Below the pieces are notes generated by a model. It was not told where the DNA came from. It ran no database searches and saw nothing but the letters and a program-made list of their open reading frames with translations. From positions 4,216,001 through 4,280,000 of the forward strand of contig CM074764.1 in the NCBI GenBank assembly GCA_037355855.1: a stretch of DNA of 64,000 nucleotides, written 5' to 3'. Both the position numbers and the translations under genes were made by a program. This document shows positions 18,721 to 63,121 of the stretch, in pieces; within the stretch, counting starts at the first letter, position 1; the number at the start of each line of letters is the position of its first letter. The DNA is from Pseudo-nitzschia pungens. Lineage: Eukaryota > Bacillariophyta > Bacillariophyceae > Bacillariales > Bacillariaceae.

Positions 18721-21700
18721 TTACTTCTCTGGCTCAGGGCTATCCCTGCAATAATAGGGATGGACTCTCCTGATGTTAACCCGGTCAGTTACAAAAGGAG
18801 CAGTTTCAATAGTTACAGTTCCATTATCATGAGCCTTGAGCACCTTGTAAGGTCCTTGCCGTGGGAAGGATAGTTTTGGAATAATGCCCTTCCTTTCCAG
18901 GGTGACATAGTCTCCTTCTTTATAGACATGGGGGATCCTCTTCTGGTTTTCCCTGATGTTGCTCTTGTGGATGCTTTTCTGCTTCCTTGCTTGGATTGCT
19001 TCCCAATCCACTGGGAAGTTCACCGGCATGAACATGTCTCGCCCAAACACCAGTTGCGCTGGGGAGTACCCCAGGGTGGTATGGATGGCGCTTCTGATAG
19101 CATATGCTGCCTTGGTGGTGAATTCCTCAAAAGGGTCCTCCTCGTGGAGGTCCCTGTTTTCCAGGTTGAAGGACAACAGACAGTCCTTTAATACCTGATG
19201 GATCCTTTCCAACACCAAGTTGGATTGTGGGTTCCAAGCCCCACTGGGCTTTCTTTTCATCCCCATGTTCTCGCAGAGCTCTTGGAACTCTGCTTTGAAC
19301 TCACTCCCGCCATCAAAGCCAATTTCCTTTGGGCGCGGATATCTTGCCAGCCAGGTACTGTCCAACAATCGTTGAGTTTCTGCTGCATTTGGGGAGTCCT
19401 TCAGGTGAGCCAGTTCAAACCATCCGGTCACTGGATCCACCATGGTGAGGACATGGATTTGGTAGTCTTTACCATTTTTGTTGTGGACAGTTGCAGGTCC
19501 CCAGAGGTCCACATTGACCCTCTGCCATTTGGTGACCTCAGCTGCTTTTTCCGGTAGTAGTCCATACTTCTTCCGGCCACTCTTCTTAAACATCTGACAC
19601 GTGTGGCAGTGCTTACAAAGGTCCTGGACGTCCTTCCGTAGGCCTTTCCAGGTGAAGACTGAGCGTATGCTCTGTTCCATTCTCTTTTCTCCGGGATGGA
19701 CCAACATGCTGTGGTACCATTCCATAACTCTATCCTTGAGTTTATCGGGAATCAGAATCTTTCCTTCTTTATGGATTAGATTGTAGCCTTCCACCATTTT
19801 GGTGGTTAGTCGGTTGTCTTTTTCCAGAGCACTCATGATTCCTGTGTCCTTTTGCTGGTAGAACTGAATCATGTCCGGGGCAAGTGGGAATGCACTATTG
19901 CCCTGGAATTCTTCCGGCGCTTCTCCAAGCGGGAATAGGAGTTGCCGGAGGTGCTCTTCCTCATCCGCGTAGGTGAGGGGCTTATTTGGTGGTAGCCATT
20001 CCACTGTGTCCGCTGGGTCATCTGTGATGTCCAGGCGAGACAGCGCGTCTGCTGCATCGTTGTCTTTGCCAGCAACGTGCTTGACTACGGGGTGGAACTC
20101 CTCCATGAGGAGTCTCCATCGGACCATCCTTTGGGTGGGCATCTGCTGATAGAGCAGGTTAAGGTGGTCTGTGTGAATAATTACATCTTGTCCTCGTAGG
20201 ATTCCCTCAAACGCTTTCAAGCCTTCCACTATACCAAGGAGTTCTTTTTCCCCGACAGTGTAGTTGAGCTGCGCTGAGTTCAGTTTCCTTGTGTAGAAAC
20301 CAAGGGGCTTGCCATCTTGGCATACAGTTGCTCCCAGTTGCCGGTCACTGGCGTCTGAGTAGAGATGAAATGGTTTCGTAAAATCCGGGAATGCGAGTTT
20401 CGCTTCATCTGCGAGCATCCTCTTCACCTCCATGAAAGCTTTCTGCTCTGCTGGGCCCCAGTACCAGTTCAGTTTTCCCTTTTTCCCTGCAAGTTTGTTG
20501 AGGGGGGCCAGGATGTGGGAGCGGCGCTTCCACATGTCCCTGTAAAAATTTACCATCCCAAGGAACATCTTGAGTTGTTTGGTGTTCTTAGGGGCTTCCA
20601 GGCGCTTCATCGCCTCCAGTTTCTTTGGCTGGGGCTGAATGCCCTCTGTTGTTAATAGAAATCCCAGATATTCCACCTCTTTTTGCATGAAAAAGGATTT
20701 TCTGAGGTTTGCTCGGAAGCCGGCATCATCCAGTCTTTGGAGGACGGTATCGATTTTGTCGAGGTGATCCTGCTCAGATTCTCCCTCTCGTTGAATGATC
20801 AGGATATCATCAATATAGACAAGGACGTAGTCCAGGTCCCCTAGTAGGTTCATCATGACTGATTGGAAGATATCCGGAGCACACGCAATCCCCATTGCTA
20901 GTCTCTTGTAGGCATACTTTCCCCACGGCAGGATGGTGGAGCAGATTTTCTGGCTCTCTTTGCAGATGGGGATGGTATAGTATCCTTGGGACAAGTCCAG
21001 CGCCGTAGCTGATTGGAACTTCTGTAGCCGCTGGATTGTTTCCCCTATTCGTGGTAGTGGGAATGGTTTCCTCTGGATGGCGGCGTTCATTTTCCGGAAG
21101 TCTGTGAGGACTCGGATATCGCCTGTCTTCTTTGGTTGACAAAAGGTAGGGGATGCCCACGGTGAGTCATCATCGTGGGGGAGTTTCTCCAGGACTCCAA
21201 TCTCACAGAGCCTGGTGATCTCCTTTCGGAGTGCTTGTTCAAAGGCATGGGGCACAGAGTAGTACCTCTGCCGGACCGGTTTGACCCCTGGTTGGAGCTC
21301 AATGGACACCGGTTCTATATTTTTGAGTAGACCCAACCCTCCTCCAAAGAGTGTTGGGAATTTCTTCAGTGTTTTCTTCAAGGCTTCCTTGGACGTGTCC
21401 GTAATCTCCAGGTCATTGACCATGGCGTCTATATCGACTTTGGAGTAGTCTGCGTCCAAGATTTTGGCTTGCCTCTCTTCCTCCTGTTGGAGGATCGGAC
21501 TTTGTGTGTTGGCAAAGAATACTGCCTCACATTTGTCCGGGTCAGTGAGTTCCCCCATTCCCTTCATGGGGATGGAGTCACCCTGCCATTCGATGGTTCG
21601 GGAGCTGTATTTTATATCCAGTCCCAGTTGTGCCATCATGTCGGATCCTATGATCATGTCGTAGGGCACCTCCTCATGGTGATGATATTCATCCACTTGG

Positions 21701-21990
21701 AAGGTCCATTTGATGGTTTTGGAGTTTGAAAACTCTATCAACCTCAGTCCCACTGAAGCCGCAGACTTGGTTCGGAACTTGCCCCCATAGGTATTATAGG
21801 TGACGGATCTGTGGTCTCGGTTCGTTAGTTGACTTCGGTCGACAAAGTGCCTTAGTATGATGGATTTGGAGCAACCGGAGTCAAGTAGGCCCCGGAGCAT
21901 CCTCCCCCTTCCCTTGTGGTCCAATACCTCCACACAGACGTCTGCATATCTGTTGATGATGCGGGGTCCAGTGTGGATGGTATCGGCCCT
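18721..21990 (-). CDS. Gypsy copy 1 Pol: protease, RT, RNase H, integrase
   Basis: The frame is open from the codon after the Gag TGA (21991-21993) to the stop at 18721, about 1089 codons. The Pol ATG present in copy 2 is AGG here, so no ATG exists near the start. Order from the frame start: aspartic protease LLDSGCSKSII (~residue 36), RT with YVLVYIDDILI (~390), RNase H with YSDASDRQLG (~547), integrase zinc region (H...H then CKHCHTC), and integrase core with Asp in VDLWGP, Asp in GFDGGSEF and Glu in LERIHQ. The tail YKEGDYVTLERKG...RRVHPYY is the usual C-terminal integrase module; no chromodomain was noticed. All catalytic residues are present. Confidence 0.92.
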   Translation of the reverse strand, partial: RADTIHTGPRIINRYADVCVEVLDHKGRGRMLRGLLDSGCSKSIILRHFVDRSQLTNRDHRSVTYNTYGGKFRTKSAASVGLRLIEFSNSKTIKWTFQVDEYHHHEEVPYDMIIGSDMMAQLGLDIKYSSRTIEWQGDSIPMKGMGELTDPDKCEAVFFANTQSPILQQEEERQAKILDADYSKVDIDAMVNDLEITDTSKEALKKTLKKFPTLFGGGLGLLKNIEPVSIELQPGVKPVRQRYYSVPHAFEQALRKEITRLCEIGVLEKLPHDDDSPWASPTFCQPKKTGDIRVLTDFRKMNAAIQRKPFPLPRIGETIQRLQKFQSATALDLSQGYYTIPICKESQKICSTILPWGKYAYKRLAMGIACAPDIFQSVMMNLLGDLDYVLVYIDDILIIQREGESEQDHLDKIDTVLQRLDDAGFRANLRKSFFMQKEVEYLGFLLTTEGIQPQPKKLEAMKRLEAPKNTKQLKMFLGMVNFYRDMWKRRSHILAPLNKLAGKKGKLNWYWGPAEQKAFMEVKRMLADEAKLAFPDFTKPFHLYSDASDRQLGATVCQDGKPLGFYTRKLNSAQLNYTVGEKELLGIVEGLKAFEGILRGQDVIIHTDHLNLLYQQMPTQRMVRWRLLMEEFHPVVKHVAGKDNDAADALSRLDITDDPADTVEWLPPNKPLTYADEEEHLRQLLFPLGEAPEEFQGNSAFPLAPDMIQFYQQKDTGIMSALEKDNRLTTKMVEGYNLIHKEGKILIPDKLKDRVMEWYHSMLVHPGEKRMEQSIRSVFTWKGLRKDVQDLCKHCHTCQMFKKSGRKKYGLLPEKAAEVTKWQRVNVDLWGPATVHNKNGKDYQIHVLTMVDPVTGWFELAHLKDSPNAAETQRLLDSTWLARYPRPKEIGFDGGSEFKAEFQELCENMGMKRKPSGAWNPQSNLVLERIHQVLKDCLLSFNLENRDLHEEDPFEEFTTKAAYAIRSAIHTTLGYSPAQLVFGRDMFMPVNFPVDWEAIQARKQKSIHKSNIRENQKRIPHVYKEGDYVTLERKGIIPKLSFPRQGPYKVLKAHDNGTVTIETAPFVTDRVNIRRVHPYYCRDSPEPEK

Positions 21991-23430
21991 TCAGTTGTGG
22001 GATCCTTTCTTTTTAAAGGTCTTTCTGTACTTTCTTCTGTACTCTTTGAGTTCCTGTTCGGAGATGTCGATCTCGTCATCGGAGACTTCGTGGTCAGCTT
22101 GGGCCGTGGCCAGTACATAAGAGTACTCGTGGTTCGATAGATTCCTTCCCCAGTGGGGTTTGGAGTGTTGCTCAGAGTCTGAGTCTTGTTCTTTTGCCAC
22201 AAAGTGCTCCTTGAGCAGGTTGATGGTTTCCCGGTCGAACTTCCCCTTCTTGTGGGGACCACCGGTTAGTTTCCAGCATTTGCCGGCATGGACCTTGCCA
22301 CAGGTCTTGCATAGCTGTTTGTTGCTGTTGTCCACAGGGCGCTTCTTTTTGCCAGGGGATTTCCCGTGGTGGGTTCCTCCCCCAGATGCGGCCTTGGGAG
22401 TCTTCTTGGTGACACCGGTCTGCTTTTCGAGGTCGGTGATGCGTTGTTGCATTATTGCTTCCTTCCGGATGGTGATTTCCAGGTTTTCGAGCTTGTCGAT
22501 AGTGGTGTTAAAGGAGTGGGTGTAGAGGTCCCAACTAATGTGCTCCAATGTCTCGCGTTGGGAGTGGGTCATGTTGGAATCCAAGATTTCCTTCAGTTCT
22601 CCTTGGGTGAGACTTCTTGGTGTTTCCATCTGGTCACTGCCACATTCCCAGAGGCATTCTGGGAGATAGCTTTGGAGTTCGGCCATTCGATTGGCCCAGG
22701 CTCTGATGCCATGTTTGAGGTCCACGCGCATGCCTCGCATGAATCGGCGGAGGACGATATACGAGCGCTTGCCGTGTTGGTCATTGCCAAAGATTTTGAG
22801 CTTGAGGGCATGCATGCATTCCTCGATGACATCCTTTCTGTACTCCTGGGATTGGTAGTACTGGGTGAGGGCGCTTGCAACCCTTTTCTTTGGGATTGGA
22901 GACTCGAGGTTGTCGGTCTCCGATTCTTTGTCCGATCTCGCCGTGGCTGTGTCGGCTTTGTCGGCGTTTGGAGATTTCTCCTTTGCCGTCTCCTTGGAGG
23001 CTCCCGTGGGAGTTTCGGTGGCGTCTTGCCCCATTGATAGCAGGATGTTTGCTTGGTCCCTTTGCGCGATCTCTTGGATCTTGTTCTGTACGTGTCTGGT
23101 GTGGTGGACCTTGTGGGTTGGTTCGGCCAAGTAGGTCCGAGCGAGCGTTCGCTGGACAAGTGCGAGTGCCTCAGTAGAGAGAATTCTCTGTAGCACCTCC
23201 AATTTCTGGTCTCCGTGGAGTTTGTCATTGCCAGCAATTTTCTGGTCAAAGTCTCTCTTCCAGATAAGGAAGAGTTCTGGTCTTTCAGTACCATTGAGAA
23301 CCTTCAGGTAGTCGCTGAATGCGATTCCACCTTGTTCGCTGTCTACATTCATCTTTACGGTGGTGGCGTCTTCCGGCCAGTCCTCCCGTGTGATGTTGAA
23401 AGGTTTCAGTTTGGTTCCTTTGGTCGCCAT
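21991..23430 (-). CDS. Gypsy copy 1 Gag, 479 aa
   Basis: Starts at ATG 23428-23430 and ends with TGA 21991-21993, in frame with Pol. Near residue ~395 a single zinc-knuckle-like motif CKTCGKVHAGKC has spacing C-x2-C-x3-H-x3-C, one residue shorter at each of the last two gaps than the canonical CCHC. The preceding ~60 residues are basic and Gly-rich. The N-terminal two thirds are helical and capsid-like in composition. Confidence 0.85.
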   Translation of the reverse strand: MATKGTKLKPFNITREDWPEDATTVKMNVDSEQGGIAFSDYLKVLNGTERPELFLIWKRDFDQKIAGNDKLHGDQKLEVLQRILSTEALALVQRTLARTYLAEPTHKVHHTRHVQNKIQEIAQRDQANILLSMGQDATETPTGASKETAKEKSPNADKADTATARSDKESETDNLESPIPKKRVASALTQYYQSQEYRKDVIEECMHALKLKIFGNDQHGKRSYIVLRRFMRGMRVDLKHGIRAWANRMAELQSYLPECLWECGSDQMETPRSLTQGELKEILDSNMTHSQRETLEHISWDLYTHSFNTTIDKLENLEITIRKEAIMQQRITDLEKQTGVTKKTPKAASGGGTHHGKSPGKKKRPVDNSNKQLCKTCGKVHAGKCWKLTGGPHKKGKFDRETINLLKEHFVAKEQDSDSEQHSKPHWGRNLSNHEYSYVLATAQADHEVSDDEIDISEQELKEYRRKYRKTFKKKGSHN

Positions 23431-26823: not shown

Positions 26824-29800
26824 TTACGATTTAATGGGACCCCTGCAATAATAAGGGTGCACTCTCCTAATGTTAACCCGGTCGGTTACAAAGGGAGCAG
26901 TTTCAATAGTTACAGTTCCATTGTCATGGGCCTTGACCACCTTGTAAGGTCCTTGTCGTGGGAAGGATAGTTTCGGAACAATGCCCTTCCTTTCCAGAGT
27001 GACATAGTCTCCTTCTTTGTAGACATGGGGAATTCTCTTCTGATTCTCCCGGATATTGCTCTTGTGGATACTCTTCTGTTTTCTTGCTTGGATTGCTTCC
27101 CAATCCACTGGGAAATTCACAGGCATGAACATGTCCCTTCCAAACACCAGTTGCACTGGGGAATATCCCAGAGTGGTGTGGATGGCGCTGCGAATCGCGT
27201 ATGCTGCCTTAGTAGTGAATTCCTCAAAAGGGTCCGTCTCGTGGAGGTCCCTTTGCTCCAAGTTGAAGGACAATAAACAATCCTTCAGGACCTGATGGAT
27301 CCTTTCCAGTGCTGAGTTGGATTGTGGGTTCCAAGCGCCACTGGGTTTTCTTTTCATCCCCATGTTGTCACAGAGCTCTTGGAACTCTGCTTTGAACTCA
27401 CTCCCGCCATCAAAGCCAATTTCCTTTGGGCGTGGATACCTTGCTAGCCAGGTACTGTCTAGCAAACGTTGAGTTTCTGCTGCGTTTGGGGAGTCCTTTA
27501 GGTGAGCCAGCTCAAACCATCCGGTTACTGGATCCACCATGGTGAGAACATGGATGTGGTAGTCTTTACCATTTTTATTGTGAACGGTTGCAGGTCCCCA
27601 GAGGTCCACATTGACCCTCTGCCATTTGGTGACCTCAGCTGCTTTCTCCGGTAGTAGTCCATACTTCTTCCGGCCACTCTTTTTGAACATCTGACACGTG
27701 TGGCAGTGTTTGCAGAGGTCCTGGACGTCCTTCCGTAGGCCTCTCCAAGTGAACACTGAGCGTATGCTCTGTTCCATTCTCTTTTCTCCGGGGTGGACCA
27801 GCATGCTGTGGTACCACTCCATAACTCTTTCCTTGAGTTTGTCCGGGATCAGGATCTTTCCTTCTTTGTGGATTAGACTGTAACCTTCCACCATTTTGGT
27901 GGTCAGTCGGTTGTCTTTTTCCAAGGCGCTCATGATTCCTGTGTCCTTTTGTTGGTAGAACTGAATCATGTCCGGGGCAAGTGGGAATGCACTATTTCCC
28001 TGGAATTCTTCCGGAGCTTCTTCTCCAAGTGGGAATAGAAGTTGCCGGAGGTGCTCTTCCTCATCCGCGTAAGTGAGGGGCTTATTTGGTGGTAACCATT
28101 CCACTGTGTCCGCTGGGTCATCAGTGATATCCAACCGTGATAGTGCGTCCGCAGCGTCGTTGTCTTTGCTGGCGACGTGCTTGACTACTGGGTGGAACTC
28201 CTCCATAAGGAGTCTCCATCATACCATTCTCTGCGTTGGCATCTGTTGATACAGTAGGTTCAGGTGGTCTGTGTGAATAATCACATCTTGTCCTCGTAGG
28301 ATTCCTTCAAACGCTTTGAGCCCTTCCACTATGCCCAGGAGTTCCTTTTCTCCTACAGTGTAATTGAGCTGCGCTGAGTTTAATTTCCTTGTGTAGAACC
28401 CAAGGGGCTTGCCATCTTGGCATACTGTTGCTCCTAGTTGCCTGTCACTGGCATCTGAGTAGAGATGAAATGGTTTCGTAAAATCCGGGAATGCAAGCTT
28501 GGCTTCATCCGCGAGCATTCGTTTCGCCTCCATGAAAGCTTTCTGCTCTGTAGGTCCCCAGTACCAATTCATTTTTCCCTTTTTCCCTGCTAGTTTATTG
28601 AGGGGGGCCAGGATGTGGGAGCGCCGCTTCCACATGTCCCGGTAGAAATTTACCATTCCAAGGAACATCTTGAGTTGCTTGGTGTTCTTGGGGGCTTCTA
28701 GTCGCTTCATCACCTCCAGCTTCTTTGGCTGGGGCTGAATGCCTTCTGTTGTTAGTAGAAAACCCAGATATTCCACTTCTTTTTGCATGAAAAAGGATTT
28801 TCTGAGGTTGGCTCGGAAGCCGGCATCGTCCAGTCGCTGTAGGACTGTATCGATTTTGTTGAGGTGATCCTGTTCGGATTCCCCTTCCCGCTGGATGATC
28901 AGAATATCATCAATATAGACCAGGACATAGTCCAGGTCCCCTAGTAGGTTCATCATTACTGATTGGAAGATATCCGGAGCACAAGCAATCCCCATAGCCA
29001 GTCTCTTATAGGCATACTTTCCCCACGGCAAAATGGTGGAGCAGATTTTCTGGCTCTCTTTGCAGATGGGGATGGTATAATATCCTTGGGACAAGTCCAG
29101 CGCCGTAGCTGATTGGAACTTTTGTAGCCGCTGGATTGTTTCCCCTATTCGTGGTAGCGGGAATGGTTTCCTCTGGATGGCGGCGTTCATTTTCCGGAAG
29201 TCGGTGAGGACTCGGATATCGCCTGTCTTCTTTGGTTGACAAAAGGTAGGGGATGCCCACGGTGAGTCATCATCGTGGGGGAGTTTCTCCAGGACTCCAA
29301 TATCACAGAGCCTGGTGATCTCCTTTCGGAGTGCTTGTTCAAAGGCATGGGGCACAGAGTAGTACCTCTGCCGGACCGGTTTGACCCCTGGTTGGAGCTC
29401 AATGGACACCGGTTCTATATTTTTGAGTAGACCCAACCCTCCTCCAAATAGTGTTGGGAATTTCTTCAGTGTTTTCTTCAAGGCTTCCTTGGACGCGTCC
29501 GTAATCTCCAGGGCATTGACCATGGCGTCTATATCGACTTTGGAGTAGTCTGCGTCCAAGATTTTGGCTTGCCTCTCTTCCTCCTGTTGGAGGATCGGGC
29601 TCTGTGTGTTGGCAAAGAATACTGCCTCACATTTGTCCGGGTCAGTAAGTTCCCCCATTCCCTTCATGGGGATGGAGTCACCCTGCCATTCGATGGTTCG
29701 GGAGCTGCATTTTATATCCAGTCCCAATTGTGCCATCATGTCGGATCCTATGATCATGTCGTAGGGCACCTCCTCATAGTGATGGTATTCATCCACTTGG

Positions 29801-30090
29801 AAGGTCCATTTGATGGTTTTGGAGTTTGAAAACTCTATCAACCTCAGTCCCACTGAAGCCGCAGACTTGGTCCGGAACTTGCCCCCATAGGTATTATAGG
29901 TGACGGATCTGTGGTCTCGGTTCGTTAGTTGACTTCGGTCGACAAAGTGCCTTAGTATGATGGATTTGGAGCAACCGGAGTCAAGTAGGCCCCGGAGCAT
30001 CCTCCCCCTTCCCTTGTGGTCCAATACCTCCACACAGACGTCTGCATATCTGTTGATGATGCGGGGTCCAGTGTGGATGGTATCGGCCAT
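26824..30090 (-). pseudogene. Gypsy copy 2 Pol, interrupted by one in-frame stop
   Basis: Pol begins at ATG 30088-30090, immediately after the Gag TGA. Protease, RT (YVLVYIDDILI) and RNase H are intact down to a TGA at 28219-28221, where copy 1 has CGA in the same context; this looks like a single C-to-T change. The frame then continues unbroken to 26824 with a complete integrase (CKHCHTC, VDLWGP, GFDGGSEF, LERIHQ). Integrase could be made only by readthrough of this second stop, so the copy is probably inactive on its own. Confidence 0.9.
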
Positions 30091-31521
30091 TCAGTTATGG
30101 GATCCTTTCTTTTTAAAGGTCTTTCTGTACTTTCTTCTGTACTCTTTGAGTTCCCGTTCGGAGATGTCGATCTCGTCATCAGAGACGTCGTGGTCAGCTT
30201 GGGCCGTGGCCAGTATATAAGAGTACTCGTGGTGTGATAGGTTCCTTCCCCAGTGGGGTTTGGAGTGTTGCTCAGTGTCTGAGTCTTGTTCTTTTGCCAC
30301 AAAGTGCTCCTTGAGCAGGTTGATGGTTTCCCGGTCAAACTTCCCCTTCTTGTGGGGACCACCGGTTAGTTTCCAGCATTTGCCGGCATGGACCTTGCCA
30401 CAGGTCTTGCATAGCTGTTTGTTGCTGTTGTCCACAGGTCGCTTCTTTTTGCCAGGGGACTTCCCGTGGTGTCCTCCCCCAGATGCGGCCTTGGGGGTCT
30501 TCTTGGTGACGCCGGTCTGCTTTTCGAGGTCGGTGATGCGTTGTTGCATTATTGCTTCCTTCCGGATGGTGATTTCCAGATTTTCGAGCTTGTCGATGGT
30601 GGTGTTAAAGGATTGGGTGTAGAGGTCCCATCCAATGTGTTCCAGCTTCTCGCGTTGGGAGTGGGTCATGTTGGAATCCAAGATTTCCTTCAATTCTCCT
30701 TGGGTGAAACTTCTTGGTGTTTCCATTTGGTCACTGCCACATTCCCAGAGGCATTCTGGGAGATAGCTTTGGAGTTCGGCCATTCGATTGGCCCAGGCTC
30801 TGATGCCATGTTTGAGGTCCACGCGCATGCCTCGCATGAAACGTCGGAGGACGATGTACGAGCGCTTGCCGTTTTGGTCATTGCCAAAGATTTTGAGCTT
30901 GAGGACATGCATGCATTCCTCCATGATATCCTTCCTGTACTCCTGGGATTGGTAGTACTGGGTGAGGGCGCTCGCGACCCTTTTCTTTGGGATTGGAGAC
31001 TCGAGTTTGTCGGTCTCCGGTTCCTTGTCCGATCTCGCCGTGGCTGTGTCGGTTTTGTCGGCGTTTGGAGATTTCTCCTTTGCCTTCTCCTTGGAGGCTC
31101 CCGTGGGAGTTGCGTCTTGTCCCATCGATAATAGTATGTTTGCTTGATCTCGCTTTTCGATTTCCTGGATCTTTTTCTGCACCCGTTTGGTGCTGTGGAT
31201 CTTGTGGGTCGGTTCGGCCAAATAGGACCGAGTGAGTGTCCTCTGGACAAGTGCTAGGGCCTCTCCAGAGAGGATTCTCTGTAGGACGTCCAGCTTCTGG
31301 TCTCCGTGGAGTTTGTCATTGCCAGCGATTTTCTGGTCAAAGTCTCTCTTCCAGATAAGGAAGAGTTCTGGTCTTTCGGTACCATTGAGAACCTTCAGGT
31401 AGTCGCTGAATGCGATTCCGCCTTGTTCGCTGTCTACATTCATCTTTACGGCGGTGGCGTCTTCCGGCCAGTCCTCCCGTGTGATGTTGAAAGGTTTCAG
31501 TTTGGTTCCTTTGGTCGCCAT
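30091..31521 (-). CDS. Gypsy copy 2 Gag, 476 aa
   Basis: Intact from ATG 31519-31521 to TGA 30091-30093, collinear with the copy 1 Gag and carrying the same shortened zinc motif CKTCGKVHAGKC. It is three residues shorter because of small in-frame indels. The stop is followed directly by the in-frame Pol ATG. Confidence 0.87.
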   Translation of the reverse strand: MATKGTKLKPFNITREDWPEDATAVKMNVDSEQGGIAFSDYLKVLNGTERPELFLIWKRDFDQKIAGNDKLHGDQKLDVLQRILSGEALALVQRTLTRSYLAEPTHKIHSTKRVQKKIQEIEKRDQANILLSMGQDATPTGASKEKAKEKSPNADKTDTATARSDKEPETDKLESPIPKKRVASALTQYYQSQEYRKDIMEECMHVLKLKIFGNDQNGKRSYIVLRRFMRGMRVDLKHGIRAWANRMAELQSYLPECLWECGSDQMETPRSFTQGELKEILDSNMTHSQREKLEHIGWDLYTQSFNTTIDKLENLEITIRKEAIMQQRITDLEKQTGVTKKTPKAASGGGHHGKSPGKKKRPVDNSNKQLCKTCGKVHAGKCWKLTGGPHKKGKFDRETINLLKEHFVAKEQDSDTEQHSKPHWGRNLSHHEYSYILATAQADHDVSDDEIDISERELKEYRRKYRKTFKKKGSHN

Positions 31522-54842: not shown

Positions 54843-54845
54843 CAG

Positions 54846-55200
54846 GGCCCTCCGGAACTAAATAATTTGCGCGCGCATGCAATTTTGTGTCAACTCGGGA
54901 CTGATTTGTTTTGCGTGAACTTACATTCATTCTCCGTGACCGCCCCCTTTATTTTTTCCTCCCCCTAAAATACGTGGGTTTTTCACGGTGAAAAAAAACC
55001 CACGTTGCATTCGTGGGTTATTCACGGTGAAAAAGAACCCACGAATGAACCCACGTTAACCCACGTTAACCCACAAAAATAACCCACGAAAACCCACTAA
55101 AACCCACGAAAACCCACGAAAACCCACGAAATAACCCATGATAACCCACGACTTTTTTCCGTGAACCCACGAACCCATGATTAAAGAACCCACCTTCGAC
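54846..55200 (+). repeat. Left terminal region with ACCCACG array
   Basis: The outer ~14 bp mirror the right end. After a unique ~120 bp, from ~54972 onward come alternating GTGGGTTTTTCACGG and AACCCACG units, including AACCCACGTTAACCCACG and ACCCATGATAACCCACG, which recur in reverse complement at the right end. Confidence 0.85.
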
Positions 55201-55270
55201 CTCCGTGAATGTCCCATCACCTTTTCCGTCAACCCAACACCAATTGTGCGTGAACGTCGACTGAACTACC

Positions 55271-56218
55271 ATGGATAACGATCTTGTTGTCACCAAAGAT
55301 GACATGCTCATTGAAGGCCTGCTAATTGCAAACTACTCAAGAAAACAAATCGACCGGGGCAACGAAAAGAGCAACGGCGGTAGATTCAACTCAAAGTTTG
55401 GTGCCTCACCCGATGTGCTATGCACAATCTACAAGGATCTGCAGGCAGAGGAAGGGTTCGAAGTAAACTTTAAATGGTTTCTCCGTGCAGTTCTATACCT
55501 TCGAAAGTATCCCCTTGAAGACGATTTCGAAACATTATTCGGTTTGACTTCACGCTACGCTCGTGGCCCAATTTGGCAGATGATTGAAAAAATACAGGCA
55601 TTGAAAACAAGAAAGATAGTGTGGCCTGATGACTTGAGCTTTGGTGAAACATGGGTGATGACTGTTGATGGCACACATGTATGGATTGAAGAGCCCGGAC
55701 ATGAAATATATTCACAAGATTCGGAATACTTCAGTCATAAATTCAACAAAGCCGGTATCAATTATGAAATAGGAATTTCTCTCGCAACACGAAGAGTAAT
55801 ATGGATGAATGGTCCATTCAAAGCTGGAAGAAATGATTTGAATATCTTTGTTGAAGAAGGATTGGAAGAACGGCTACTAATGTTAAAGCAGAAGGCAATC
55901 GGAGATGGAATATACCGTGGCCACGACAAAACAGTTTCATACCCAAACCTTCATGACAGTTACGGAGTGAAGACATTCAAAACCCGAGCTCTCAAAGGAC
56001 ACGAAGATTTTAATGGGATGTGTAAGAGTTTTAAAGTTCTAAGCAGCAGATTTCGGCACGGTGTGGGAAAGATTGCTAATGCCTTTGAAGCTGTTGCTGT
56101 TATTTGCGAATACAAAATTGAGGCAAATGAACCTTTGTTTGACGTACTCATTGAAGATGTTGTCTTTGGTGGACCGGAGGATGAAGTTGCAGAATTGATG
56201 GCGTCATTGGAAATTTAG
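55271..56218 (+). CDS. DDE transposase, PIF/Harbinger-like, 315 aa
   Basis: Single exon from ATG 55271. The catalytic core reads MTVDGTHVWIEEP (Asp133), GPFKAGRNDLNIF (conserved Asp189, not catalytic), AIGDGIYRG (Asp212) and GHEDFNGMCKSFKVLSSRFRHG (Glu245). This is the D-D-E pattern of the Harbinger/DDE_4 endonuclease, with 78 and 32 residues between. The ~120 N-terminal residues may include a DNA-binding part but no known helix-turn-helix was recognised. It should cut and join the element ends. It is near the short end of the family's length range. It lies directly inside the left terminus and reads inward, convergent with the 923-aa gene. Confidence 0.82.
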   Translation: MDNDLVVTKDDMLIEGLLIANYSRKQIDRGNEKSNGGRFNSKFGASPDVLCTIYKDLQAEEGFEVNFKWFLRAVLYLRKYPLEDDFETLFGLTSRYARGPIWQMIEKIQALKTRKIVWPDDLSFGETWVMTVDGTHVWIEEPGHEIYSQDSEYFSHKFNKAGINYEIGISLATRRVIWMNGPFKAGRNDLNIFVEEGLEERLLMLKQKAIGDGIYRGHDKTVSYPNLHDSYGVKTFKTRALKGHEDFNGMCKSFKVLSSRFRHGVGKIANAFEAVAVICEYKIEANEPLFDVLIEDVVFGGPEDEVAELMASLEI

Positions 56219-56272
56219 AAGCATATCCATCACGTTTTGTGAAGGTGGTACTCGTAGTATAATTTACAAAGT

Positions 56273-59179
56273 TTACTTCATATTGGACCAAATGTTAGTA
56301 TGAAGATCGTCAATGACAGCACTGTTCGGATTGCGATTAGATTTCAGCTTCAACTTCTTGCCCCCTACACGTACTGATGTACTGATGAACGCAGGATTAT
56401 CAGGAGTACCAAACTTGCCATGGAGTTGTTCACGAAGCAGATTTCTACGAAATTGACCAGGAGGACGTTTCGGAAACTCATCCTCATCATCAGAACTCCA
56501 CTGTGGTGCCTCGTTGCGCTTCTGTCCGGGTGATGGTGATTTCCGCTGGTCAAGACCGGGTGGTGGGGGCTTGCGCTGCTGGTCAAGAGGACTGGGTGGT
56601 GGGGGCTTGCGCTGGTCAGGAGGACCGGGTGGTGGGGGCTTGCGCTGGTCAGGAGGACCGGGTGGTGGGGGCTTGCGCTGGTCAGGAGGACCGGGTGGTG
56701 GGGGCTTGCGCTGGTCAGGAGGACCGAGTGGTGGGGGCTTGCGCTGGTCAGGAGGACCGAGTGGTGGGGGCTTGCGCTGGTCAGGAGGACCGGGTGGTGG
56801 GGGCTTGCACTGCTGGTCAAGAGGACCGGGTGGTGGGGGCTTGCGCTGCTGGTCAAGAGGACCGGGTGGTGGGGGCTTGCGCTGCTGGTCAAGAGGACCG
56901 GGTGGTGGGGGCTTGTGCTGGTCAGGATTTTCAGGCGGTGAGAACCAATCTACAGTAATATTTGGCAGTTCAATGTCCTCAAGCATCTCATCAATTTCTT
57001 GACTATATTTTGCAAATGGAGATGGAGATGGAGCTGGCGGAGATGGAGCTGGCGGAGATGGAGCTGCCGGAGATGGAAAATCTATAGACTCCTGACCGTC
57101 TCCTTGCTCACCGGCTGCAGGACGTTGTTGCTCATCGGGAGAGTTTCTGGCAAGCTGACCGTGCCCACCAGACGTTCCAAAAGATGGCTGTGATGGTTGT
57201 GATAAGCTTGCAGACAAAGGTAGTGACGACGCAGACAAAGCAAAAGATGACTGTCCCGAAGCAAAAGATGGTTGCGATGAACTTACAGCAGACTGTCTCG
57301 AAGCAAAAGCAGACAGTCTCGAAGCAAAAGATGGTTGCGAGCTTGCAGCAGACTGTCTCGAAGCAAAACTTGCGGCAGTCGAAGCAAAAGATGACCTCGA
57401 AGCAAATGACCTTGCGGCAGTCGAAGCAAAAGATGAACTTGCAGCAGACTGTCTCGAAGCAAAAGATGACCTTGCAGCAGTCGAAGCAGAAGATGATTGC
57501 GATGAACTTGCAGCAGACTGTCTCGAAGCAAAAGTTGGTTGCGATGACTGTCTCGAAGGTTGCGATGAACTTGCAGCAGACTGTCTGGAAGCAAAAGATG
57601 GTTGCGATGACTGTCTGGAAGCAAAAGATGGTTGCGATGACTGTCCGGAAGCGAAAGATGGTTGCGATGACTGTCCGGAAGCGAAAGATGGTTGCGATGA
57701 CTGTCCCGAAGCGAAAGATGGTTGCGATGACTGTCTGGAAGCAAGTTGCGATGAGCTTGCAGCAAATGAGCTTGCCACAGACTGTCCACCTTTGGATTCC
57801 GTTGTTGGAGTTTGAAAGCTGACTACTCCTCCTGTTTCTGTTTTAGTTGTTTGCGAACTGACTCCTCCTGTTTCTGTTTTAGTTGTTTGCGAACTAGATA
57901 CATTATCTGGGCCGTCGGGAGGAGGTGATGGAGAACCTAGAAAAAAAAATGTTTAGTTTCGTATCATTGTGTTACTACCCATTATGCATTGAATTTACTA
58001 CCACTCACCCAGACGAAAAGCATCTGCAAATGCTGACTGTACTCGGTCGACTGAGGTCCTCTCAACAAGTTCAATTGTATTGGTGATGGCCAACTGGACA
58101 TAAAGTACAGCTTTCGTATGTGGATAACCTTCACGCAGAGAAGCATCAGATGAACGCGGATTTGGAGGTACCATCCAACCACTATACATTTCACATCTGA
58201 GATGAGTTGACCATAGTCCATCTGCCCCACAGTCGGGAACACCAACATTGCCTCCATTGACATTGTTGAAGTACTGGGTGGTCACATGGTAGCCGTGTGG
58301 TAGATGATACTCGATCCACTCCGTACGATCATCTCTTGTGACTTCATCCCGAGTGAGTTTCAAAGCAAAAGCCTTGTGTGCATCAATTGTCTGTGTATCA
58401 CACCCTACGAAGTTCTTATCACCACCGGTCATCAAGAAGTTGGGATGAAAGGGTGTTCGCGCATAAATGATCTTCCCATCTACGCTGACTTTCACGATGT
58501 ATCGACCCTGTGCCATATCAAGTCCATCAGTGAGGGGTGTAGACATGACAATCTTATCCATCTTAGCACCGCTTTCTGGGACATAGCAGTTATTGGCAAC
58601 AACAAACATCCACGGGCCATTCTTGTGTGGATTCTGCAAGTCAATATTGATCTTGCGCACAATGTTCATTGGAATCGTTGGAAAAACCGTAGGACCCATT
58701 TCTTCACTTGACTTTGGCGTTGGACGTGCTTCAGATTTAGAACGAGTCTCAAATGGTGATTGGAACAATACTCGTCGGGGGGATTGAAATGGCAGCTAGA
58801 AAGAAGTGAGATAACATTCACAGAAAATAAAATCAAGTTCACGGAAAAACAATCTCACCTCTGTTTCCTCTTCTTCTTCTTCTTCGTAGTCGTCCTCCTC
58901 GTCCTCCTCAGCCGTTCGATATCGTGCTGAATGCGGAAGAACATTCAAAGTTTTGAGAAGCTGTTCGTATTTCTTTTCTGGATAGCTTCTCCAGTTTTTC
59001 AACAAATCACGAATTGTTTTGCGTTTTGCTGTACCTCTCTTTCCGTAAGAACGTATATCCTGGTCAAGAAACTTTGAAAGTGTTTGATCGGCTCGATTAG
59101 CGTTGAAAAACTTGCCTAGTCCTCCAGCACTTTCAATTTTTTCTGCTAATTGCTTTTTCACTGCTATGGAAACAACCAT
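56273..59179 (-). CDS. Transposon accessory protein with Ser/Gln and Pro repeats, 3 exons, 923 aa
   Basis: Exons on the minus strand are 59179-58859, 58795-58009 and 57936-56273, joined by GT-AG introns of 63 and 72 bp in phases 0 and 1. Exon 1 has a helical basic region (KKQLAEKIESAGGLGKFF) and a Glu/Asp tract. Exon 2 codes a ~260-aa globular-looking domain (NGPWMFVVANNCYVPESGAK) of no known family. Exon 3 begins with two copies of SSQTTKTETGG, then ~190 residues of SQPSFAS-type repeats and about 14 PPPPGPPDQRK units (33-bp DNA repeat), ending in a basic tail. Probably a nuclear, multivalent protein; its role is unknown. The opposite-strand ORFs in the repeats are artefacts. Confidence 0.7.
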
Positions 59180-60207
59180 TGTGAGAGAAATGCGACGATC
59201 TAAAATTTGAGAAGTTCACTCTCGAGCGTCCAAACCCTGCCAATTGCGACAAAATTTGACGGGCACCAATTCGGTGCCCGTTCATTTTGCAGAAAACCAA
59301 TGACAATCAATGTTCAGCCATTCTCCGTGAACCTTGCTTCTTTTGAAAGAAGCAAGACAGTTTACGATTGCGGAATCAGTACACGACCAAGTGGCGGGTT
59401 CGTGGGTTTGTGGATCCTTCACGCGCAAAGAAGCAAGATGCACCCTTCTCCGTGAACCTTGCTTCTTTGAAAGAAGCAAGTTTACGATTCATTTTACTTG
59501 CGGAATCAGTAGAGTCGTGGGTTTGTGGATCCTTCACGTGCAAAGAAGCAAGATAGATGCACCCTCACGCTTAAAGAAGGAGCACTTTTTTCGTGGGTTA
59601 TTGTGGTTATCGTGGGTTATTGTGGGTTATCGTGGGTTATTTTTGTGGGTTAACGTGGGTTCATATGTGGGTGGTGGTAGTTCTGAAGCGCCTCAGCGTT
59701 AGCCAGCGATCCAACGTCCGGAGTATGCGCGCGGTTCAACCTATCAATTTTCATTCCTCCCAAGGGCACACGGGCCTATGTTGTTTTTTTTTACTGCCTC
59801 GCACTTTGGCTTATTCCTCGTGTTGGCTTTTCTTGGTCTTTGTTGGCGGGAAACATAAAGCACTACCTAGGTAACCTTACCACTACCACTGTGTAGAACG
59901 AATCAGCGCAAATTTTCTTCCGCTCCAGGCGATCCAACGGTCTATTAATTATGTTCCATTCCCACGCCAACATTTTTTGTGTTTTCATCAAAACCTTCAC
60001 GAAATATCACAACCGAAACGCATACTCCCAACATACTCATTATGTTCCATTCCCACGCCAACATTTTTTGTGTTTTCATCAAAACCTTCACGAAATCCGA
60101 AACATATACCATGAAAATCGTGACAAAAACTGAGCCATGATGTGAATATGCTGCTGCTGCTGCAGCAGAAGCTGCTGCTTTGGTAGGTCATAAACTAATT
60201 ATCCAGG
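59180..60207. promoter_or_regulatory. Divergent internal promoter region with repeats
   Basis: About 1 kb between two divergent genes of the transposon. It contains two copies of a ~120-bp unit with CTCCGTGAACCTTGCTTC and an 11-bp hairpin CTTGCTTCTTT/AAAGAAGCAAG (59331-59355 and 59457-59480), a third GTGGGTTA array (59589-59672) like the terminal ones, and a ~91-bp tandem duplication starting TATGTTCCATTCCCACGCC at 59949 and 60039. Confidence 0.6.
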
Positions 60208-61492
60208 ATGAAATTCTGCATTTGGGAGCAATATCTCAACTTGGCTTGGCCTGTTTCGATAGAAGGCAAATGCTTGGATGGTGAGTCAACCTGCTGTGAA
60301 GTCCAGTACTACTACGATGGAGACAAGGCTTCTGACATTCTTTTGTTTGGCTGTATTAGCGCAAGTGGAAGCAATCAAGGCTGCACGAAGGAACAAGGAA
60401 AGTTGTGAGCCCCCAAAGAAGAAACAAAAGCGTTTTCCAGAAGCAGAACATGTTGACAATGACAGGGGCGGAACTCCTGAGTTCAAGATTGTCAATGGTG
60501 AATGTGAAACTCCTGGGTTGGATCCTGAGTTCGATGAGAGCAACGGCAACGGCAACAATGCTGACGAAGACGAATTTGGGTATGGTGAAACTTCTGAGAT
60601 TGACAATGGTGAAACTCCTAATCGCAGCGACAAACCTGAGTTCGATGAGAGCAACGGCAACAGTGCTGAAACTCATCGCAGCAAAAGCAATGACGGTGAA
60701 CATTCGGATACAGAGGGAAAAAGCGATGGTCACGGTGACGATACAGGCAGCGATAACCTTGATACTGCGGATGAGGAGATCGATGGTATGGATTTGAAAG
60801 GGAAAACTGTTGAGGAGAAACTTCAAGTTATTCTATCATTGAGTTACGCTGATTTGGCTACCACAGTGAAGAGCTTGTATTCTGAGTTCCCAAATCGCAA
60901 GAGGAAGACATTCGAAGAAATGCTTTTTGATCATTATTCACTTCCTCATCCTACCAGCAAACAGAGGAAACAACTTTCAACAAAGAAAAAAAAAGGATAT
61001 AGGAGGTCTACTTTTTCAAGGCCATCTTCCTGTGCACAAGTGAAAGATGATGCGTCGTCCAGAAAATTTACCGTGTGTTCAGAGATGATCAAACAATTCC
61101 AGTATAGCACGACATGGGAAGCAGAAAAGCGCAATGGAAAGCCCAAACTTCAAACAATGATGGTTGTATTTGATGAAATGATTGCGCAACCAAGTCAAAT
61201 CAAGGGAAAGGCATCCAAAGATATGAAGCACTTTTTCCGACAAAACACTAGTGGAGAGCATCAACCTGAGCTATTTTTTCTTATCCCTGAAGACTTCGAC
61301 AAAAAGACTTTCGGTTCAATGTTGCAGAAGATTGGAAAAGATATGAAGCGATCGGAAACCTCATCTGGTAATAATTGGGCATTCACAGACAAAGTAGAAC
61401 GTTTTTTCAAATTTGTGTATGGGGAAAAATCATTTAAATCCCAAGGTACAAACAAACAAATGAAGAGAAAACGAATCGAAGAAGAATTGTGA
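60208..61492 (+). CDS. Transposon accessory protein, acidic N-half and basic C-half, 2 exons, 401 aa
   Basis: Exons 60208-60280 and 60360-61492 join in phase 1 over a 79-bp intron (GTGAGT...TATTAG); the spliced start MKFCIWEQYLNLAW replaces an unspliced ATG at 60291 or other in-intron starts. A likely nuclear signal, PPKKKQKRF, follows. Residues ~60-185 are very acidic with repeated DPEFDESNGN/KPEFDESNGN blocks. From ~190 on is a more ordered domain (TVEEKLQVILSLSYADLATT, NRKRKTFEEMLFDHYSLPHP) and a C-terminal Lys/Phe-rich region. No family recognised. It converges on the 263-aa gene. Confidence 0.68.
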
Positions 61493-61566
61493 TTCGAAAC
61501 AACCAATTCGGTGTACGGTAGGAATTTTGTGTCGCTGTAGTTATATTTTGTAGTGCACTATTTAAT

Positions 61567-62358
61567 TTATGCATATTTGTAAGTTGCCTGCTTGCCCCTT
61601 GTTTTTAATGTGTAGAAGTATTTCAATGTACGAATCTCTTGTTTAACCTTGTCACGGAATACATGCAGGGGGAAAGCTAAATATTCGTCTCTTGATTCCC
61701 ATAGATCTTTCTTTCGACTTCCGAATTCCTCCACAATTCCATCTTCAATGTCTTTCAACAACAATTTCTGCTGTTCCGACCCCTGCCATTGAATATAGCC
61801 TTTGTGACTGTAATATGAAATGGGGTTGTTTGCAATAAACAATTCAAAAGCTTTTTGGTCGGTCTCTGCTCTTTGATTGCTTGATTTGATTGTTTTGCGA
61901 AGGCTACTCAATCTACTTGAGAACTTACTGAAGTGATATTCCGCATATTCTGGATGCATCAAATATATTTCTTTTAGCGGCATTGTAATCCTCCGGTTAT
62001 GGTCTTTGGGTTCAAGAGGAACTACTCCGTTCATTATATCTTTGTACAATAGTTTCTTTGCTTTCGAATTTGCCCATGGAATACTAGGCTCTTGGTAGAC
62101 CTTACTAAAAAAAAGCATCGGATCTCCTTCTTTGACAACCTTCACAAAACGGCAAGGTCCAGTCATGGAAACAAAATCTTCGTTTCCTGATTCGTTGTCA
62201 TGAAGATAACAAAACTCATACTCATTTCCTTTGCGGCCTAGGAGCACTATGTTGCTCCGATGCTGTGGATTCGGAAGTAATTGAGGAGGTTTGATATATT
62301 TCGTAAGAATTGTTGCTTGAGCTCCCGATCCTGCTCTTAATTTCTGTGTTGTCGGCAT
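61567..62358 (-). CDS. Transposon accessory protein with an internal duplication, 263 aa
   Basis: Single exon; ATG at 62356-62358 chosen (a GTG lies two codons upstream). The protein carries two related ~55-residue modules: residues ~94-156 (IPWANSKAKKLLYKDIMNG ... MPLKEIYLMHPEYAEYHFSK) and ~200-252 (IQWQGSEQQKLLLKDIEDG ... LWESRDEYLAFPLHVFRDK). Shared pattern: W-x2-S, KLL-x-KDI-x2-G, then an aromatic/E-Y segment and F. Such paired helical modules could bind DNA or the termini, but this is a guess. Its upstream side faces a 60-bp tandem array and the right terminus. Confidence 0.68.
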   Translation of the reverse strand: MPTTQKLRAGSGAQATILTKYIKPPQLLPNPQHRSNIVLLGRKGNEYEFCYLHDNESGNEDFVSMTGPCRFVKVVKEGDPMLFFSKVYQEPSIPWANSKAKKLLYKDIMNGVVPLEPKDHNRRITMPLKEIYLMHPEYAEYHFSKFSSRLSSLRKTIKSSNQRAETDQKAFELFIANNPISYYSHKGYIQWQGSEQQKLLLKDIEDGIVEEFGSRKKDLWESRDEYLAFPLHVFRDKVKQEIRTLKYFYTLKTRGKQATYKYA

Positions 62359-62369
62359 TTTCACGGTTC

Positions 62370-62690
62370 ACGGAAAGTTGATGTCGATGTATAGAGCGTT
62401 CACGGAAATGAGCTGAGCACTCACTAGCTTCACGGAAAGTTGATGTCGATATAGAGCGTTCACGGAAATGAGCTGAGCACTCACTAGCTTCACGGAAAGT
62501 TGATGTCGATGTAGAGCGTTCACGGAAATGAGCTGAGCGCTCACTAGCTTCACGGAAAGTTGATGTCGATATAGAGCGTTCACGGAAATGAGCTGAGCGC
62601 TCACTAGCTTCACGGAAAGTTGATGTCGATATAGAGCGTTCACGGAAATGAGCTGAGCGCTCACTAGCTTCACGGAAAGTTGAGCTAATG
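62370..62690. repeat. 60-bp tandem array (about 5 copies) upstream of the 263-aa gene
   Basis: The unit is exactly 60 bp and nearly invariant. It contains two TTCACGGAAA-type words (CACGGAAATGAGCTGAGC and CTTCACGGAAAGTTGATG) and varies at a few bases (ATATAGAGC/ATGTAGAGC, GAGCACTC/GAGCGCTC). It lies in the promoter position of the 263-aa gene and next to the right terminus. Confidence 0.9.
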
Positions 62691-62729
62691 AGCGCTCACG
62701 TCTTGTCGGTGTAACATTCACCGAAAGTT

Positions 62730-63118
62730 GACCCACAATCGTGGGTTCGTGGGTTCACGGAAAAAAGTCGTGGGTTATCATGGGTTATTTCGTGGGTTTT
62801 CGTGGGTTATCGTGGGTTATCGTGGGTTATTTTTGTGGGTTAACGTGGGTTAACGTGGGTTCATATGAACCCACAATTATTCCATTCGTGGGTTCGTGGA
62901 GTCACGTGGGTTCAAGTGGGTTTTTCACGGTGAAAAAAAACCCACGTTGCAACCCGTGGGTTATTGATGGTGAAAAAAAACCCACGTTTTTTACCCCTTA
63001 AAAAATTATTTTCCCCCTTTTACATTAGGGAACGGCACGGTTGTAAAAATTGACATTTTTTAACGGGACTCGACACAAAGTGCGGTACGGGCGATTTTTT
63101 TTTCAGTTCCGGAGGGCC
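62730..63118 (-). repeat. Right terminal region with ACCCACG array
   Basis: Reverse-complement counterpart of 54846-55200: CGTGGGTTA units at 62740-62870, further GTGGGTT pairs around TTCACGGTGAAAAA (62925-62985), then a unique ~110 bp ending GTTCCGGAGGGCC. Confidence 0.85.
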
Positions 63119-63121
63119 CAG

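Follow-up and report, generated by a model that had tools for sequence, protein, structure and literature searches.

The stretch of DNA analysed here (64,000 nucleotides of the diatom Pseudo-nitzschia pungens, hereafter the window) carries an 8.27-kb element that is probably an autonomous cut-and-paste transposon of the PIF/Harbinger-ISL2EU-Spy (PHIS) superfamily, representing a diatom lineage with CNG targets, mostly CAG or CTG, and a set of four genes. The genome also encodes several silicon transporters (PF03842, best E 4e-232), a family characteristic of diatoms and thus in keeping with the host. Judged from sequence comparison among six related families (A, that of the window, to F), the recurrent core of the lineage consists of the DDE transposase, the gene for a 263-aa protein with a duplicated module and the gene for a large repeat protein. 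The features of the window copy are collected in Table 1.

Table 1. Features of the family A copy in the window (window coordinates).
Feature	Position	Strand	Remarks
Whole element	54846-63118		8,273 bp; four intact gene models
Left target site duplication, CAG	54843..54845	.	From sequence; CNG match on both sides in 17/18 end-paired elements
Left terminal inverted repeat, GGCCCTCCGGAACT	54846..54859	+	Exact 14-bp match
Left subterminal region	54974..55151	+	Array of 10-bp AACCCACGWW repeats plus hairpin-like units at 54974 and 55013
DDE transposase gene, 315 aa	55271..56218	+	D133-D212-E245; DDE_Tnp_4, 31.9 bits
Repeat-protein gene, 923 aa	56273..59179	-	Exons 59179-58859, 58795-58009, 57936-56273; spliced translation
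Internal 10-bp repeat array	59591..59671	-	Between divergent repeat-protein and 401-aa genes
401-aa protein gene	60208..61492	+	Exons 60208-60280, 60360-61492; spliced translation
263-aa protein gene	61567..62358	-	Predicted beta N-terminus plus a pair of similar three-helix modules
Tandem repeats	62367..62683	.	About five 60-bp units with TTCACGG words, upstream of 263-aa gene
Right subterminal region	62737..62991	-	AACCCA array, inverted, plus hairpin-like units at 62916 and 62956
Right terminal inverted repeat	63105..63118	-	Exact match to GGCCCTCCGGAACT
Right target site duplication, CAG	63119..63121	.	

The original prediction had delimited the unit by its inverted ends and a CAG duplication, and this delimitation held: the 14-bp ends are perfect, CAG stands on both sides, and the terminal sequence has exactly two exact matches in the window, both at the element ends. 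When up to three mismatches were allowed, six matches were obtained in the window against 3.3 expected, so only exact matches are meaningful there. In the genome (66.9 Mb, 28 contigs) 43 exact copies were found, nine of them unpaired and outside the end-paired set, and with up to one mismatch 66 matches were obtained versus 30 for a reversed control, for which reason we relied genome-wide on exact or paired end matches. Equal 3-bp CNG flanks were present in 17 of 18 end-paired elements of family A (CAG in 11, CTG in 5, CCG in 1), so that the duplication is CWG in 16 of the 17 matched elements and TWA in none of them. The remaining end pair, C5:378721-379826, was counted as a miss; it has one end mismatch, no AACCCA and unmatched flanks. 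The terminus of family A reads GGCCC after CAG or CTG, and the G shared with the target gives GGGCCC; whether the terminal repeat starts with GGG or GGC thus depends on the assignment of this shared G.

Family A comprises five large copies, the one in the window and four others, and 12 short ones, which at 894-1,226 bp have no room for the gene set. All have the same 14-bp ends, with one mismatch in one end of one short copy; further copies therefore share the ends of the window copy instead of showing different ones, as the original prediction expected. The other large copies (C1:4756323-4764503, C1:5076864-5085155, C9:3376776-3385257 and C1:4476097-4495379, the last interrupted by about 11 kb of inserted DNA) also have the same gene order, and segment-wise alignment to the window copy gave identities of 94.6-99.7%. 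A DDE protein 100% identical to that of the window is encoded at three further places; at a fourth the identity is 99%, with one stop. The window copy and the C9 copy (315, 263, 960 and 442 aa in the latter) retain four open frames; the 263 gene is broken in copy C1a, and the DDE and 401 genes are broken in copy C1b. From these sequences, the element was apparently active recently.

Two of the large copies with CAG duplications (C1:4756220-4765568 and C1:5076770-5086230) have common flanks within a CAG-rich tandem array, so that at most 16 independent insertion events are represented. As to empty sites, a weak candidate for two large copies was a 32-base match in the CAG-rich array, and for the other three of the five none was found at 26 bases within the loci retrieved. 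The flanks of a short copy (C8:2648870) and of a family F copy (C2:6350404) resemble the same array, which may be a favoured target or part of duplicated DNA. The flank of the split copy (C1:4495380-4495439) contains TTTTTTCCATAATGTTCCAG, resembling an end of family D, so this copy may have jumped beside or into a family D remnant.

Four intact genes had been proposed, one for a compact DDE protein and three for proteins of 923, 401 and 263 aa, and the splice models put forward for the repeat-protein and 401-aa genes indeed translate without an internal stop. The match of the compact 315-aa protein to DDE_Tnp_4 lies above the cut-off of 24.8 bits, and the residues named as its catalytic triad (D133, D212, E245) are invariant in all six aligned families. 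The repeat protein has conserved N-terminal and middle parts followed by long Ser/Gln/Ala and Pro repeats, and the 401-aa protein has an acidic middle, basic stretches and a conserved C-terminal domain. In the 263-aa protein the expected internal duplication could be recognised, as WANSKAKKLLYKDIMNGVV and WQGSEQQKLLLKDIEDGIV are identical at 10 of 19 residues. Its AlphaFold model is mediocre overall (mean pLDDT 64.7), with averages by blocks of ten residues of 59-87 in the first module and 84-88 in the second; fold matches to this model were weak and fell on the N-terminal beta part, so that they barely test the helical modules. The model of the 401 C-terminal domain was poor (pLDDT 52.3).

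None of the accessory proteins gave a credible Pfam match. The claim that they have no recognisable Myb domain was borne out in the regions scanned: no Myb, SANT or MADF model was detected by hmmscan, even at E up to 10, in the window ORFs outside the Ser/Gln-rich part of the repeat protein (~57936-56987) and the 24-residue first exon of the 401-aa gene, nor at E up to 1 in the proteins of relatives that were scanned. The PF13837 Myb control matched nothing in this genome or in 14 control genomes and is hence uninformative. Between families A and B, pN/pS values were 0.17/0.79 for the DDE protein, 0.20/0.87 for the 263-aa protein, 0.46/0.75 for the middle of the repeat protein and 0.54/0.74 for the C-terminal part of the 401-aa protein, figures that serve as a rough guide because synonymous sites are saturated. 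By this measure the 263-aa protein comes close to the transposase in conservation, and of the four parts compared the C-terminal one of the 401-aa protein evolves fastest.

Five related families were examined, with transposase identities to that of the window of about 31-72%. Family B (C2:6581923-6591371; 9,449 bp; CTG/CTG) has all four genes, with a transposase 72% identical, a 263 homologue 65% identical, a repeat protein whose first two exons show 33% identity, and an open frame of 778 aa for a 401-type protein; its middle two genes are inverted as a block relative to family A. All four genes, in changed order, are also present in family D (about C7:1806229-1813869; CAG/CAG), which has near-identical inverted ends of about 600 bp and a transposase 33% identical. 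In family C the transposase, 263-type and repeat-type genes were found together twice, one of the two places carrying an insertion, apparently of Ty3/Gypsy type; the repeat-type matches are weak, with E of 1.5e-4 to 0.005, yet at both places they are located between the transposase and 263-type genes. In family E the same three genes stand in another order, the repeat-type gene having been read in one copy. In family F only the transposase and a 401-type protein were recognised, and no 263-type or repeat-type gene, within the 7.9 kb read, a partial sequence that does not reach the other end. Beyond the transposase-side end, the only end concerned, five of six family F copies have CTG, CTG, CTG, CAG and TTG, so that CWG occurs in four of these five flanks as well as in families B and D.

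Thus, 263-type homologues were found in families B, C, D and E, and 401-type homologues in B, D and F. The assignment of the repeat-type proteins was examined by profile comparison, in which families A/B against a D/E profile gave P 7.7e-6, against E alone 3e-5 and against D alone 6.8e-5, versus P of 0.05 or higher when E and D were each shuffled five times. In five of the six families (A-E) the transposase is accompanied by both 263-type and repeat-type genes and, because the gene order differs between families, this common content is not just inherited synteny. The proposal that the three accessory genes form one system with the transposase is supported, with a refinement: the 263-type and repeat-type genes recur with the DDE gene, whereas a 401 homologue was not recognised in the parts read of families C (all but ~4.6 kb of the element) and E (short of its far ends). 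A 4.5-kb piece of a family C element includes the putative Ty3/Gypsy-type insertion and no 401 homologue. Three candidates were rejected because their scores did not clearly exceed those of five shuffles: a 263-aa and a 213-aa protein of family E, compared with the 401 type, and a 176-aa protein of family F, compared with the 263 type. A 310-aa open frame (C2:5494602-5495531) adjoins the family C transposase and is possibly a different fourth protein of that family.

Linkage of the genes was then assessed across the genome. The prediction would sit badly with accessory genes never linked to a DDE gene, and the opposite was found: at 19 of 25 places a 263-type gene has a DDE gene of the element's lineage within 20 kb, and the same holds for repeat-type genes at 12 of 15 (11 of 14 without one place that was found by reading beside a DDE gene), compared to a chance expectation of 1.9%, the share of the genome covered by the 32 transposase places ±20 kb. 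No 263-type or repeat-type gene was found within 20 kb of the 58 other DDE_Tnp_4 loci listed, and a 401-type domain lies 4 and 16 kb away at two of 55 such loci. As the genome scan for DDE_Tnp_4 listed families D and F and missed A, B, C and E, these locus lists are lower bounds. One unlinked 263-type place, C2:5518961, narrowly misses the 20-kb limit, the nearby DDE_Tnp_4 locus (C2:5540092, unrelated) being 21 kb away.

These distributions bear on whether the accessory set is captured host DNA, Pack-type cargo with no part in movement. The accessory proteins have no known domain, two of them contain low-complexity repeats, and the six 263-type places without a lineage DDE gene within 20 kb could include host genes. 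Nevertheless, a repeat-type gene lies 8-12 kb away at three of those six places, as in a transposon whose DDE gene has been lost or hidden, and the same genes recur in changed order across families with strongly diverged transposases, so that we regard capture as very improbable.

The 401-type C-terminal domain behaves differently. It was found at a minimum of 82 places, a count that omits three fragments (C6:4442396, C7:1749524 and C9:2790571), and among those listed 20 of 82 have a DDE_Tnp_4-type gene within 20 kb and 62 have none; by these matches, the domain is not confined to the four-gene system. It recurs in a repeated family beginning MARHKKKK (about 20 places, at least 85% identity) and also, with no DDE_Tnp_4-type gene close by, in frames of about 500-900 aa. 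At one 401-type place, C7:4660000-4673000, open frames of 330, 248 and 777 aa occur without a recognised transposase, and none of the three has a Pfam match over the cut-off.

With respect to known systems, the DDE_Tnp_4-type transposase with its conserved triad agrees with the broad PHIS/PIF-Harbinger superfamily, so the PIF/Harbinger-like label given originally is right at that level; the narrow PIF/Harbinger group is excluded by the CNG target, since a TWA duplication marks that group and CWG marks NuwaI in the part of the PHIS survey cited here (Han et al. 2015, PMC4482050). Like NuwaI as described there, the element combines a CWG duplication and short G-rich terminal repeats, which in NuwaI usually start with GGG, with a DDE transposase lacking any other recognised domain. 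In that part of the survey, PHIS groups have one or two genes, and NuwaI is reported from animals only, averages about 4.5 kb and has in most candidates two ORFs, DDE and Myb/SANT; here, the host is a diatom, the elements measure 7.6-9.4 kb (families A, B and D) and carry four genes, and Myb/SANT was undetected. A second ORF with Myb/SANT, expected of both narrow PIF/Harbinger and NuwaI, gave no Pfam match in the proteins scanned, a diverged domain being possible. By target, which fits NuwaI, and by gene content, which differs, the element would be a new PHIS variant with NuwaI-like targets rather than a member of NuwaI.

The narrow PIF/Harbinger elements (Ping/Pong, Harbinger3_DR) share with the present one the separation of catalytic and (here putative) DNA-binding proteins, the short derivatives with the same ends and the motif repeats inside the ends, and differ by their TWA target and Myb-like partner, in place of which CNG and three unrecognised proteins are found here. 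ISL2EU is likewise a PHIS member whose second protein, with a YqaJ domain, is not Myb-like, so the partner can differ between PHIS groups; it differs in its AT duplication and its two ORFs with THAP and YqaJ domains, according to the passages of the survey used here (PMC4482050), and neither domain was matched in the window ORFs scanned with hmmscan. Harbinger-type elements of another stramenopile alga, Ectocarpus, comprise ANT-type (Pangu-like) and TNA-type elements with two tail-to-tail genes and ANT or TNA targets, in the portion of the report consulted (PMC12477816). Among the literature titles and abstract openings surveyed, none described a four-gene Harbinger-type element.

An ordinary two-gene element of NuwaI type would have the 263-aa protein as a diverged Myb, trihelix or MADF partner and the repeat and 401-aa proteins as passengers. 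The target site, the two predicted three-helix modules and a conservation close to that of the transposase all agree with such a partner. We consider this reading rather unlikely, given that eight isolated helical modules showed no Myb, SANT or MADF match at E up to 10, and that the repeat-type gene is retained in families A, B, C, D and E, which is unexpected of a passenger.

The outer ~340 bp of each end contain inverted arrays of a 10-bp AACCCA repeat. The left subterminal layout is identical in the other contiguous copies, and the arms at 55058-55182 and 62737-62861 are 88% complementary. Over 32 arms of 16 contiguous elements, AACCCA occurs 11-17 times per arm, at a spacing of exactly 10 bp in 211 of 428 intervals and in a dominant orientation (460 one way versus 74 the other), and an 18-base AACCCA dimer, with up to one mismatch, gave 229 genome matches versus 1 for the reversed control. 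The regulatory words said to be shared within the element were recovered: TTCACGG occurs 17 times on its + strand versus 0 in the other 55,727 bases of the window (reverse complement, 4 versus 2), and AACCCA 19 times versus 5 in the rest of the window (TGGGTT, 27 versus 21). In family B the repeated word near the ends is a different one, GTGCAAGTTT with close variants.

Both arms persist in all 12 short copies, suggesting that movement depends on the arrays. This observation also weighs on the idea that the accessory proteins act on the host, through anti-silencing or expression tuning, while the DDE protein and one partner suffice for movement. The many listed places where the 401-type domain has no DDE_Tnp_4-type gene nearby, the rapid evolution of its C-terminal part and the internal array between genes, where a regulator could act, are all consistent with a host-directed role. 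As arrays persist at both ends of short copies lacking room for the gene set, at least one array reader likely serves movement itself, and we hold the host-directed explanation to be unlikely, if the least so of the alternatives considered.

In the mechanism we prefer, the 315-aa DDE protein would cut and join at the terminal repeats, and the 263-aa protein would bind the AACCCA array at each end through its two predicted modules and bring the transposase to the ends. This is the role of the Myb-like protein of Harbinger3_DR, which, in the sections of the reports cited, binds a 9-bp subterminal motif and is required for nuclear entry of the transposase (PMC2836001, PMC9710019). The 263-aa protein probably replaces the Myb partner; that it is the reader of the AACCCA array is a guess from its modelled structure. 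The repeat protein, present in most families, may be a structural or scaffolding partner, and the 401-aa protein an exchangeable cofactor that helps with nuclear entry, with expression or in evading silencing; other repeated elements of the genome would also make use of its C-terminal domain. Because two accessory genes stay with the transposase in five of six families, a multi-protein transposition machine is suggested. The complete picture, that of a diatom PIF/Harbinger-type lineage whose Myb partner gave way to a new two-module DNA-binding protein reading 10-bp arrays about once per helical turn, together with a scaffold and an exchangeable third factor sharing its C-terminal domain with other mobile elements, is put forward tentatively, and some part of it may well prove wrong.

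The retention of three or four genes across deep divergence and changes of order makes it testable which extra proteins a DDE transposase needs, and the ways in which other proteins can take the place of a Myb partner become testable as well. NuwaI, with its CWG targeting, is reported from animals alone in the part of the survey used (PMC4482050); such targeting now extends to a diatom. An apparently recently active element with short derivatives is also a candidate transposition tool for diatom biology.

Other mobile elements were noted in and around these loci. The window contains two candidate Ty3/Gypsy-type retroelements with very similar proteins (18721-23430 and 26824-31521), a close relative of which lies inside the family C transposon (C2:5485914-5489998), and a 1,791-aa open frame (2156-7531) for a putative Copia-type polyprotein.
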